DNA from: Arthrobacter sp. FW306-07-I
Lineage (GTDB): Bacteria; Actinomycetota; Actinomycetes; Actinomycetales; Micrococcaceae
NCBI RefSeq assembly: GCF_021800405.1
Contig: NZ_CP084550.1
Span: 3,410,001-3,474,000, forward strand
Direction: 5' to 3'
DNA length: 64,000 nt
Shown here: one piece after another, positions 39,016 to 41,285 of the stretch
Layout of the letters: every line of letters starts with the position of its first letter
How positions within the stretch are numbered: position 1 is the first letter of the stretch
The notes under the pieces: model-generated
The model's database searches: none
The model's input: only the letters and a program-made list of their open reading frames with translations
Told to the model about the DNA's origin: nothing
Program-made: the position numbers and the translations under genes

Positions 39016-39031
39016 ATACCCCCATGGGTGT
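39016..39031. promoter_or_regulatory. CstR operator, leftward copy
   Basis: ATACCCCCATGGGTGT, an imperfect palindrome of the CsoR/CstR type, lies just upstream of the sensor gene. In the leftward direction it sits between a weak GTCAAA and TATAGT, so it probably autoregulates the sensor-DUF302 operon. Confidence 0.6.
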
Positions 39032-39032
39032 T

Positions 39033-39061
39033 TTGACTACCCCCGGGGGTATCTGTAATAC
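39033..39061 (+). promoter_or_regulatory. Rightward promoter with CstR operator in the spacer
   Basis: TTGACT (39033-39038) and TAATAC (39056-39061) are separated by exactly 17 bp. The spacer contains the perfect palindrome TACCCCCGGGGGTA (39038-39051). A bound CsoR-family tetramer would block RNA polymerase. A further TGGGGTATCCCCCA-like palindrome at 39066-39079 may be an extra site. Confidence 0.75.
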
Positions 39062-39101
39062 TCGGTGGGGTATCCCCCAGACCCCTTCCGAGAGGCCACA
39101 C

Positions 39102-39722
39102 ATGACATCCCCTTCCAAAGCAACCGCCGTTACGGCGCTTGCTCCCGAAACGCTGCAGTCATGGTTCAAAGAGCACCAGGATCTCGTGGTGATCGATGTG
39201 CGGTCCGCCGCTGAATTCGAATCCATGCACATCCGCGGTTCCTACAATGTGCCGCTGCCGCTGCTGTCCGAGCACACCGATGAACTCGCCGCCCGGCTTG
39301 GCTCGCGCGTGGTCCTGGTCTGCCAGTCCGGCGTCCGCGCCGAGCAGGCACGCCAGCGGATGGCCACCGTCGGCCTCGATACCGCCTACGTCCTCACCGG
39401 CGGGGTTCCGGGCTTCGCCACTGCCGTCGGCGGGGACGTTGTCAAGGGCAAGGACCGCTGGGACCTTGAGCGGCAGGTCCGCCTGGCCGCCGGCTCCCTG
39501 GTGATGCTGGGTCTGGTGGGCGGCAAGTTCGTCTCCCCCAAGGTCCGCATGCTCGCCGGCGCCATCGGCACCGGGCTGACCTTCTCGGCCGCGACCAACA
39601 CCTGCGCCATGGGCAAGGCCCTGTCTGCCATGCCGTGGAATAAGGCTGCCCAGGAACCCACCCGTGAAAGCGCCATCCTGCAGCTTCCCGTGCAGACAGC
39701 TGAAGCGGGCGCTGCGGCATGA
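39102..39722 (+). CDS. Rhodanese with C-terminal DUF2892 membrane domain (YgaP-like)
   Basis: Residues ~15-105 form a rhodanese domain with catalytic C74 in LVCQSGVRAEQ. Residues ~125-185 hold two hydrophobic segments of the DUF2892 type (SLVMLGLVGGKFVSP; LAGAIGTGLTFSAATN) with a TCAMG motif. This is the YgaP layout: a membrane-linked sulfurtransferase. The first gene behind the CstR operator; GAGAGG precedes the ATG. It overlaps the TSUP gene (ATGA). Confidence 0.9.
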   Translation: MTSPSKATAVTALAPETLQSWFKEHQDLVVIDVRSAAEFESMHIRGSYNVPLPLLSEHTDELAARLGSRVVLVCQSGVRAEQARQRMATVGLDTAYVLTGGVPGFATAVGGDVVKGKDRWDLERQVRLAAGSLVMLGLVGGKFVSPKVRMLAGAIGTGLTFSAATNTCAMGKALSAMPWNKAAQEPTRESAILQLPVQTAEAGAAA

Positions 39723-40477
39723 TCCCGGCCCTGGGTCTGGGGCTCGTCGTCGGCGTCGTACTGGGCGTAGTGGGTGGCGGCGGGTCCATCATCGCCGTTC
39801 CGGCCCTGGTGTACGGCGTGGGCATGAGCCCCGCCCAGGCCATCCCCACCTCACTGCTGGTGGTGGGCATCTCCTCACTGGCGGCCCTGCTCCCCCGCCT
39901 TCGCGAGGGCCTGAACTGGCCCGTCATCGCACTGGTAGGCGCCGCCGGCATCCCGGCGGCCTGGGCGGGAGCCGCCGTGGGGAAACTGCTGGACCCGAAC
40001 ATCCTGATGCTCGCATTCGCCGTGATCATGGTGGTCGCGGGCATCCGGATGCTCAAGAAGCCGCGCGAAACCGAGGGCTCCTGCAGCACCGGGCCGCGCC
40101 GGGCCTTCCGGTCCTGCGCCCCGAAAGCCGTGGCTGTGGGCGTGCTGGTCGGGTTCCTCACCGGGCTGCTGGGCGTGGGCGGCGGATTCCTCATCACCCC
40201 CGCACTGACCATCTTCCTGGGCCTGCGGATGAAGCAGGCCGTAGGGACTTCGCTGGCGATCATCGTGGTCAACTCCGCCGCCGGGTTCAGCGCCCACGCA
40301 GCCGGCTACACCATCGACTGGGCCACCACCCTGGCGTTCGCAGTCCCGGCCATCCTGGGTTCCGTCTTCGCCGCCCGGCTGGCCCGGCGCCTGCACGACA
40401 AGCACATCCGTATCTCGTTTGCGGTACTCATCTTCGCCGTCGCGGCGTGGGTCACCGCCGGCACGGTCACCGCCTGA
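39719..40477 (+). CDS. TSUP/TauE-family sulfite or sulfur-compound exporter
   Basis: 252 residues, about eight helices in two repeats, each with a glycine-rich start: GVVGGGGSIIAVPAL and GLLGVGGGFLITPAL, the TauE/SafE signature. Probably exports sulfite or takes up/exports thiosulfate formed during persulfide oxidation. Overlaps the rhodanese gene by 4 bp. In cst operons such a transporter is usual. Confidence 0.9.
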   Translation: MIPALGLGLVVGVVLGVVGGGGSIIAVPALVYGVGMSPAQAIPTSLLVVGISSLAALLPRLREGLNWPVIALVGAAGIPAAWAGAAVGKLLDPNILMLAFAVIMVVAGIRMLKKPRETEGSCSTGPRRAFRSCAPKAVAVGVLVGFLTGLLGVGGGFLITPALTIFLGLRMKQAVGTSLAIIVVNSAAGFSAHAAGYTIDWATTLAFAVPAILGSVFAARLARRLHDKHIRISFAVLIFAVAAWVTAGTVTA

Positions 40478-40499
40478 CCCCGTTACAGAGGAGAACACC

Positions 40500-40841
40500 G
40501 TGGGATTGATCGATTCCCTCAAGAAGGCCTTCAGCAAGCCCTACAAGACGATTTCCGTAGCGCAGGCCAAGGAACTCCTGGGCTCCGGCGCCACGCTGAT
40601 CGACGTCCGGTCCGCCCAGGAGTGGCGCACTGGCCGCGCACCCCAGGCCAAACACGTTCCCCTGGACCGGCTGCAGACCAGCACGGCCGGAATCCAGAAG
40701 GCCCGGCCGGTGATTGCTGTCTGCGCCTCCGGCGTCCGCTCCGCCTCGGCAGCCAGACTCCTCGCCGCCAAGGGGTACGACGCCTACTCGGTGCGCGGCG
40801 GCATGGCCGCCTGGCGCCAGGCCGGCGAACCGGTCCGCTGA
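40500..40841 (+). CDS. Single-domain rhodanese
   Basis: 113 residues; catalytic C75 in VIAVCASGVRSASAAR, upstream LIDVRSAQEWRTG. Thiosulfate or persulfide sulfurtransferase. A GTG start with GAGGAG 7 nt upstream, 22 bp after the TSUP gene. Short basic N-terminal helix (LIDSLKKAFSKPYK). Confidence 0.9.
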   Translation: MGLIDSLKKAFSKPYKTISVAQAKELLGSGATLIDVRSAQEWRTGRAPQAKHVPLDRLQTSTAGIQKARPVIAVCASGVRSASAARLLAAKGYDAYSVRGGMAAWRQAGEPVR

Positions 40842-40888
40842 CCCAACTCCACCCCACCAGCCGCAACCCAATTCAAAGGAGAACTCCC

Positions 40889-41185
40889 ATGGCTGAAATC
40901 ACCATCACCGAAACCGACCAGCGCCGCTCTACCGCCCGCATCCTGGATGTCCGCGAGGACTTTGAAGTTGCCGAGGGCATGATCCCCGGCGCGCTGCACA
41001 TCCCGATGGGCCAGCTGCAGGCCCGCCTGGGCGAACTCGACCCGGCCGTGCCCGTGATTGCCGTCTGCCGCAGCGGCAACCGCAGCGCCGCCGTCGCCGA
41101 TGCCCTCAACGGCGCTGGCTACAAAGCGGACACCATGGCCGGCGGCATGACCGCCTGGACACGCGCCGGACTCCCCACCACCTAA
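40889..41185 (+). CDS. Single-domain rhodanese
   Basis: 98 residues with catalytic C60 in VIAVCRSGNRSAAVADAL and the leading LDVREDFEVAEG motif. AAAGGAG precedes the ATG. Third rhodanese in this operon. The charge of its active-site loop (CRSGNR) differs from the others (CQSGVR, CASGVR), suggesting different sulfur acceptors. Confidence 0.9.
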   Translation: MAEITITETDQRRSTARILDVREDFEVAEGMIPGALHIPMGQLQARLGELDPAVPVIAVCRSGNRSAAVADALNGAGYKADTMAGGMTAWTRAGLPTT

Positions 41186-41255
41186 GCCTGCCCGGACCCA
41201 CCCTTCCCTGATCGACGGCTCCCGCCGCACCGCAGCTCAATTGGCGGCAGTCCCC

Positions 41256-41285
41256 TTGCGTTATACCCCCGGGGGTATCTAAAAT
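41256..41285 (+). promoter_or_regulatory. Promoter with CstR operator in the spacer
   Basis: TTGCGT (41256-41261) and TAAAAT (41280-41285) are 18 bp apart, and the spacer is the perfect palindrome ATACCCCCGGGGGTAT (41263-41278). It is the same operator as at 39038 and drives the dioxygenase gene. Confidence 0.75.

Follow-up and report, generated by a model that had tools for sequence, protein, structure and literature searches.

Half-site spacing may insulate persulfide from copper regulons and is set into a compact divergent promoter module in Arthrobacter

Introduction

CsoR-family paralogues with near-identical motifs coexist in many bacteria, which poses the question of how specificity is maintained after duplication. 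This question arises at a locus in the window analysed here, a 64,000-nucleotide stretch of the soil bacterium Arthrobacter sp. FW306-07-I (G000:C1:3410001-3474000 of a 4.56-Mb genome). Here cstR, which encodes a CsoR/RcnR-family regulator, is divergent from a rhodanese-TSUP-rhodanese-rhodanese operon, and a persulfide dioxygenase-rhodanese gene has its own second promoter. An earlier note on this DNA had described identical CstR-type palindromes nested in the -35/-10 spacers of the rhodanese and dioxygenase promoters and had proposed repressor occlusion of both.

We lean towards the view that a one-base-pair difference in half-site spacing has long insulated persulfide regulons (TAC-N8-GTA) from copper regulons (TAC-N9-GTA) within one repressor family in Actinomycetota and Bacillota, and that in Arthrobacter relatives the persulfide form is incorporated in a 63-bp module of two promoters and three operators in which operator and -35 share bases. 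If true, a spacing rule of one base pair would allow the class of target, persulfide or copper, to be read from the operator. The locus belongs to a known circuit and its promoter layout is new; the spacing split is the part that a specialist would want to test.

Results

The regulator is CstR-type and has a copper-type paralogue

The regulator carries Cys40 and Cys69, 29 residues apart, and a Gly (in GLEQC) four residues before the second Cys, where CsoR has its His ligand. These residues make it CstR-type by sequence, and the Cys-His-Cys ligand set of copper CsoR is broken by the replacement of His with Gly. The same 29-residue spacing is present in three staphylococcal CstR proteins and in ScCsoR of Streptomyces coelicolor (Cys37/Cys66; PMC7533328). 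The surroundings of the gene are also those of a CstR-type regulator, with rhodanese, dioxygenase and TauE genes nearby and predicted operators that are TAC-N8-GTA, not the TAC-N9-GTA of copper CsoR. Among the regulators recovered by a motif search, which missed 15 loci, the residue at the His position was G, N, S or T in 109 and His in 33. No NCBIfam equivalog model that would name the regulator CstR passed its cut-off. One other PF02583 gene is present in the genome, a Cys-His-Cys CsoR (G000:C1:4387005) located before genes for a heavy-metal-associated (HMA) domain and a P-type ATPase.

Sites of the two classes differ by one base pair at the centre

The region upstream of this genome's csoR carries ATACCCCCTGGGGGTAC and ATACCCTACCGGGGTAT, which have a 3-bp centre, in contrast to the 2-bp centre of the CstR sites. 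For comparison, the best 80 of at least 493 confirmed relatives were kept. With the centre left free between 0 and 5 bp, the best upstream site had a 2-bp centre in 79 of 80 CstR loci, being tied in 6 of these and unrivalled in 73. In all 29 CsoR loci its centre was 3 bp; these were the 30 best-scoring loci less L095, in which the motif was not found.

The same split was present in an extended set of phylum-wide and plasmid loci, which were classed by the His residue and scored with the centre free between 0 and 6 bp. Ties that included 2 but not 3 were counted as 2-bp, and L186 was labelled by hand. Among 112 regulators lacking the His, 102 had a 2-bp site, none had a 3-bp site alone, 9 had no site scoring at least 12 and 1 was ambiguous between 2 and 3; among 37 with the His, 33 had a 3-bp site, none a 2-bp site and 4 no site. 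When the loci were reduced to 39 representatives, the corresponding numbers were 18, 0, 8 and 1 without the His, and 9 (3-bp), 0 (2-bp) and 3 (none) with it. Of the 15 loci that the motif had missed, 7 were added by their annotated genes (L181-L183, L190, L191, L194 and L198), while L071, L073, L081, L087, L168, L171, L179 and L195 were left out of these counts. Viewed apart, L071, L073, L081 and L087 have 2-bp sites, L171 has one 2-bp site and L195 has 3-bp sites, and L168 and L179 have no upstream site scoring at least 12. Shuffled upstream regions yielded a site of at least 12 in 1/99 and 1/327 draws.

Both classes are represented on staphylococcal plasmids, with 2-bp centres at three CstR loci (scores 11-13) and 3-bp centres at two CsoR loci that encode the same protein (scores 12-13). 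Four CsoR-type plasmid loci (L189, L191, L192 and L198) had no recognisable site. The regulator tree groups all 12 His rows in a single clade with support of 99/96.

Within the Arthrobacter genome, 3-bp sites with at most one mismatch are found twice at csoR-copZ-copA, once before an HMA-domain gene and once at 3949511. The site before the HMA-domain gene (L136, G000:C1:3486827) is exact and lies 12.8 kb beyond the window; it is likely a second copper target. We also considered a helix 1 Glu-to-Gln change as a marker of the spacing class and rejected it, as L180 and L186 have IEGQ together with 2-bp-centre sites.

The split is consistent with sites from the literature: TAC-N9-GTA is the form given for copper CsoR in S. 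lividans (PMC3902906), the sites proposed for S. aureus copAZ and copXL are 17-mers (PMC10233261), and the ScCsoR site is of the N8 form. In the partial literature searched the spacing rule was not found stated, and the primary S. aureus CstR papers may contain it. One base pair at the site centre seems to keep the sulfur switch apart from the copper switch, and spacing would then be a cause of regulator specificity.

Among 90 family genomes, exact 2-bp-centre sites occur only in those with CstR

We compared 90 family genomes, in 63 of which CstR was scored as present by an E-value of at most 1e-14 alone. Exact 2-bp-centre ATACCCCNNGGGGTAT was found in 54/63 genomes with CstR and in 0/27 without it (Fisher p 1.4e-15, relatedness ignored). 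The exact 3-bp-centre ATACCCCNNNGGGGTAT had no clear link with CstR, being present in 53/63 genomes with it and 26/27 without (p 0.16). Backward-pattern controls were zero in all 90 genomes for both site types. Twelve genera were sampled with species of both kinds; in 10 of them exact 2-bp sites were confined to the CstR species, and in the remaining 2 no sampled species had an exact 2-bp site.

Each predicted promoter of the locus has a site within its spacer

A genome scan for the palindrome, one of the checks that the earlier note had put forward, showed that exact TACCCCNNGGGGTA occurs only twice in the genome, at the rhodanese and dioxygenase promoters of the window. Allowing one mismatch to the 16-mer ATACCCNNNNGGGTAT gives 5 places; 4 of them belong to the locus, three in the divergent module and one in the dioxygenase promoter. 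Matches with up to two mismatches were rejected as further targets, because 49 in the forward direction against 37 in a backward control indicate mostly background. The window alone shows no excess at up to three mismatches (4 matches versus 4.09 expected).

The elements that the earlier note had named are present at their coordinates, with TACCCCCGGGGGTA at 39038-39051 and 41264-41277, ATACCCCCATGGGTGT at 39016-39031, and the hexamers and spacers as given. The two palindromes are identical over the 14-bp core but not over 16 bp (CTACCCCCGGGGGTAT versus ATACCCCCGGGGGTAT). The third site, which the note had described as facing the sensor gene, is site 1 and falls between the -35 and -10 of a cstR promoter with a spacer of 17 bp. 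The placement of a site in the rhodanese spacer also held, although the proposed -10 (TAATAC, 17-bp spacer) is one base off; AATACT with an 18-bp spacer is the better choice, its positions 2 (A) and 6 (T) each being kept in 42/43 non-redundant regions. Site 3, the cstR promoter and the shared -35 region had been missed, so that the overall reading was supported in part.

To place the promoters in relatives, each register was scored as the mean number of consensus matches (of 12) over -35 placements with spacers of 16-19 bp. The best register for all three promoters puts a site within the spacer. For the rhodanese promoter (43 regions) this register has the -35 at -4 from the site, a spacer of 18 and the -10 at +20, scoring 7.33/12 against an all-register mean of 2.79 (standard deviation, sd, 1.25). 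The cstR promoter (43 regions) is best with the -35 at -8, a spacer of 17 and the -10 at +15 (7.00/12; mean 2.89, sd 1.21). The dioxygenase promoter, scored on 32 non-redundant of 34 single-site promoters, is best with the -35 at -7, a spacer of 18 and the -10 at +17 (6.38/12; mean 2.90, sd 1.11). Conservation thus supports the nesting, but it follows three different registers and no single fixed geometry, which implies blocking rather than the use of one precise helical face.

The divergent promoters share their -35 region, with the rhodanese and cstR -35 elements overlapping by five bases; the module would therefore probably admit a single polymerase at any moment. The rhodanese -35 reads TTGACT in 18/43 regions, where the operator loses its outermost base, and TTGCAT in another 18/43, where the operator keeps it. 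This compact module neatly illustrates how the same bases can serve operator and promoter alike.

Upstream of the dioxygenase gene, 65 regions were compared (the window and 64 relatives more than 60% identical, after four of 68 matches of ~30% identity had been dropped). Of these, 57 have a site scoring 13 or 14 of 14 and 2 have a site scoring 12. The number of sites of at least 12 ranges by lineage over none, one, two or three. In L063, L067, L074, L075 and L089 two sites lie 35-37 bp apart, unlike the window's single in-spacer site.

Three sites 21 bp apart form the divergent module

The divergent cstR/rhodanese region is a 63-bp module whose sites start at 39016, 39037 and 39058, exactly 21 bp apart. 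We scanned the divergent regions of the window and 80 relatives for 16-mers scoring at least 10 of 14, and found the site 1-site 2 pair in 67 of 81; since anchoring of the pair required a partner 20-22 bp upstream, the peak at that spacing is partly by construction. The site at +21 was not selected for, and it scores at least 10 in 47 of the 67 paired regions. After thinning to less than 80% identity with the window included, it is kept in 28/43 regions. Conservation extends to both outer arms. The right arm of site 3, GGGGTAT, lies beyond the -10; at all seven of its columns the base of GGGGTAT is the most frequent one, with 29-37/43 regions agreeing, while the imperfect arm of site 1, GGGTGT, is present in 31/43. 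Site 1 may therefore be a weaker autoregulatory site.

Across the family, the exact core followed by GGGGTAT within 30 bp was found in 130/295 genomes and never in a backward control. Among the matches listed (150 rows, 75 genomes), 61 rows in 39 genomes have the 21-bp distance; other distances listed are 14, 17, 20, 22-24, 28 and 32-36 bp. These varied spacings rule out strict 21-bp phasing, and the arrangement of three sites in 21-bp steps is a local variation found chiefly in Arthrobacter relatives.

Probable persulfide-relieved repression and its alternatives

Persulfide-relieved repression by promoter occlusion is the explanation that we favour with considerable confidence; the observation behind it is confirmed and the mechanism is likely. 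On the basis of homology and site geometry, the CstR-type repressor in its reduced form would bind the divergent module at three sites and the dioxygenase promoter at one. RNA polymerase would be blocked because every promoter has a site within its -35/-10 spacer, and site 3 would in addition cover the rhodanese -10. Under rising sulfane sulfur, Cys40 and Cys69 would be modified and the repressor would leave, which would allow expression of the rhodanese-TSUP operon, the persulfide dioxygenase gene and cstR. The degenerate but conserved site 1 would leave cstR autorepression leaky, and the 2-bp centre (ATAC-N8-GTAT), as opposed to the 3-bp centre of copper CsoR (ATAC-N9-GTAT), would keep the paralogous regulators on separate genes.

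The sites might instead serve the copper-sensing CsoR paralogue, or both proteins, such that the genes also answer to copper. Both regulators are PF02583 proteins, both kinds of site use ATAC/GTAT arms with C/G tracts, and a Csp1-like Cys-rich gene lies nearby (37753-38160). We nevertheless regard this as highly improbable, given the uniform 3-bp centres of the CsoR loci, the positions of three of this genome's four 3-bp sites with at most one mismatch, at csoR-copZ-copA and before the HMA-domain gene, and the lack of exact 2-bp sites in all 27 genomes without CstR, 26 of which keep exact 3-bp sites. A second alternative is MerR-like action, in which a spacer-bound protein distorts the DNA and activates once modified. 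MerR sites lie between -35 and -10, as the sites here do, and MerR promoters have spacers of 19-20 bp. The spacers of this locus are 17-18 bp, near optimal, and in S. coelicolor deletion of the homologue raises expression and polysulfide frees the protein from DNA (PMC7533328); we give activation of this kind almost no weight.

A narrower alternative concerns site 3 alone, which might be no operator, with its conservation arising from the -10 plus an initial-transcript or leader feature. Its left arm does belong to the -10, and some relatives, L011 among them, carry GGTGGGGTATCCACC-like sequence that might fold into a short hairpin. With the site at exactly +21 in most non-redundant regions and the right arm conserved beyond the -10, we consider this unlikely; moreover, the expected start would lie inside site 3, so that a leader hairpin would lose its 5' arm.

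Several observations weigh against promoter occlusion by CstR and against the spacing code as we describe them. The site 1-site 2 pair is lacking in 14/81 divergent regions, 6/65 dioxygenase upstream regions have no site scoring at least 12, and 9/63 CstR genomes have no exact 2-bp-centre site. The overlap of site 3 with the -10 means that its conservation is partly that of the promoter, and the variation of paired-site distances across the family shows that a distance of 21 bp is not required. A spacer of 17 in the dioxygenase promoter nearly equals one of 18 (6.25 versus 6.38). In S. coelicolor, the pdo promoter has its two sites at -48 and -9 relative to the transcription start site, outside the spacer (PMC7533328). 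Since the His, 3-bp regulators form one clade, the split may trace to a single event, and the loci are not independent proofs of it. Finally, in one genome with three CstR genes (G053), one of them (L199, G053:C1:96000) has a 3-bp-centre site upstream and the other two have 2-bp sites.

Comparison with known systems

The closest tested system is the ScCsoR circuit of S. coelicolor. Its regulator recognises ATACCn6GGTAT and represses its own gene as well as pdo-tauE and rhod; polysulfide releases it, provided that both Cys37 and Cys66 are present (PMC7533328). As in Arthrobacter, a CsoR-like dithiol repressor shares an intergenic region with a rhodanese gene (PMC7533328). The dioxygenase and TauE targets, which are predicted ones in Arthrobacter, and the site of the 2-bp-centre class are also alike. 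Self-regulation and polysulfide release would, by analogy, match what we propose for the Arthrobacter locus (PMC7533328). The layout is different, as Arthrobacter has one dioxygenase spacer site and, in a divergent region whose -35 elements overlap each other, three sites 21 bp apart. Together with conservation, this tested circuit supports the earlier note's CstR-type assignment and its proposal of joint control of the rhodanese-TSUP and dioxygenase genes. In B. licheniformis, YrkD represses its own cluster and shows no binding after elemental-sulfur treatment (PMC9918477).

The staphylococcal CstR-cst system, seen in three plasmid loci, has a dithiol regulator without the His, divergent cstA-cstB, sites with 2-bp centres and, in the two loci that extend far enough, a TauE gene after cstR. 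It differs in that the cstA/cstR region holds two sites at a distance of 43 bp; in the sequences inspected, one of them is flanked on both sides by TTGACA-like hexamers and is not within a spacer. Copper CsoR shares the protein family and the ATAC/GTAT arms with G/C tracts, but has TAC-N9-GTA 17-mers, a His four residues before the second Cys and copper efflux genes (PMC3902906, PMC10233261). TTHA1953 of Thermus thermophilus is likewise a CsoR-family repressor of sulfur genes, and it and the copper CsoR of the same organism cross-bind hardly or not at all; it differs in its site, TACNNTACNNNNGTANNGTA, and in controlling Sox genes far from its own gene (PMC10318464).

Gene content of the locus

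Table 1. Genes and predicted promoter elements and operator sites of the cstR locus (window coordinates)
Feature	Position	Strand	Description	Evidence
cstR	38719..38991	-	CsoR/RcnR-family regulator, CstR-type; start may be second ATG (Met6)	PF02583 E 2.3e-23, 82.8 bits vs cut-off 22.8
DUF302 protein	38257..38673	-	3' of cstR	PF03625 E 8.4e-19
Terminator-like hairpin	38199..38237	-	after cstR-DUF302	18-pair stem, then T run
Rhodanese	39102..39722	+	with YgaP-like membrane domain	PF00581, PF11127
TSUP	39719..40477	+	TSUP/TauE sulfite exporter-like	PF01925 E 1.4e-55
Rhodanese	40500..40841	+	single-domain	PF00581
Rhodanese	40889..41185	+	single-domain	PF00581
Persulfide dioxygenase-rhodanese fusion	41331..42731	+	metallo-beta-lactamase (MBL) fold + rhodanese	PF00753, PF00581
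cstR -10	39011..39016	-	TATAGT (39016-39011)	hexamers at same place in relatives
cstR -35	39034..39039	-	TAGTCA (39039-39034); overlaps rhodanese -35 on opposite strand	
Rhodanese -35	39033..39038	+	TTGACT	
Rhodanese -10	39057..39062	+	AATACT, 18-bp spacer, TG at 39054-39055	
Dioxygenase -35	41256..41261	+	TTGCGT	conserved register
Dioxygenase -10	41280..41285	+	TAAAAT	
Site 1	39016..39031	.	ATACCCCCATGGGTGT, in 17-bp spacer of cstR promoter	conserved outer arm GGGTGT
Site 2	39037..39052	.	CTACCCCCGGGGGTAT, in rhodanese promoter spacer; first two bases within -35	
Site 3	39058..39073	.	ATACTCGGTGGGGTAT; left arm over rhodanese -10, right arm perfect; centre 21 bp from site 2's	
Dioxygenase promoter site	41263..41278	.	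ATACCCCCGGGGGTAT, perfect 16-mer in spacer	

The features are listed in Table 1. The name persulfide dioxygenase rests on gene context and homology, no equivalog cut-off having been passed. A major facilitator superfamily (MFS) transporter gene is also present on the plus strand, and cstR and the DUF302 gene are likely on one transcript. Among the 80 relative loci (tblastn, E at most 1e-8), the rhodanese-membrane gene was present in 69, TSUP in 69, the dioxygenase in 68, DUF302 in 47 and MFS in 42; some of these loci cover only a short distance, and the dioxygenase count includes the four matches of only ~30% identity. One of these loci, L063, comes from a record titled Vibrio cholerae that carries an Arthrobacter-like CstR locus and is probably a mislabelled or contaminated assembly; it was retained in the counts. 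The Csp1-like DUF326 gene adjoins the cstR-DUF302 unit, falls below its NCBIfam cut-off and is present in just 1/80 relative loci. DUF302 is also found near CstR-type genes on one Streptomyces and one Rhodococcus plasmid.

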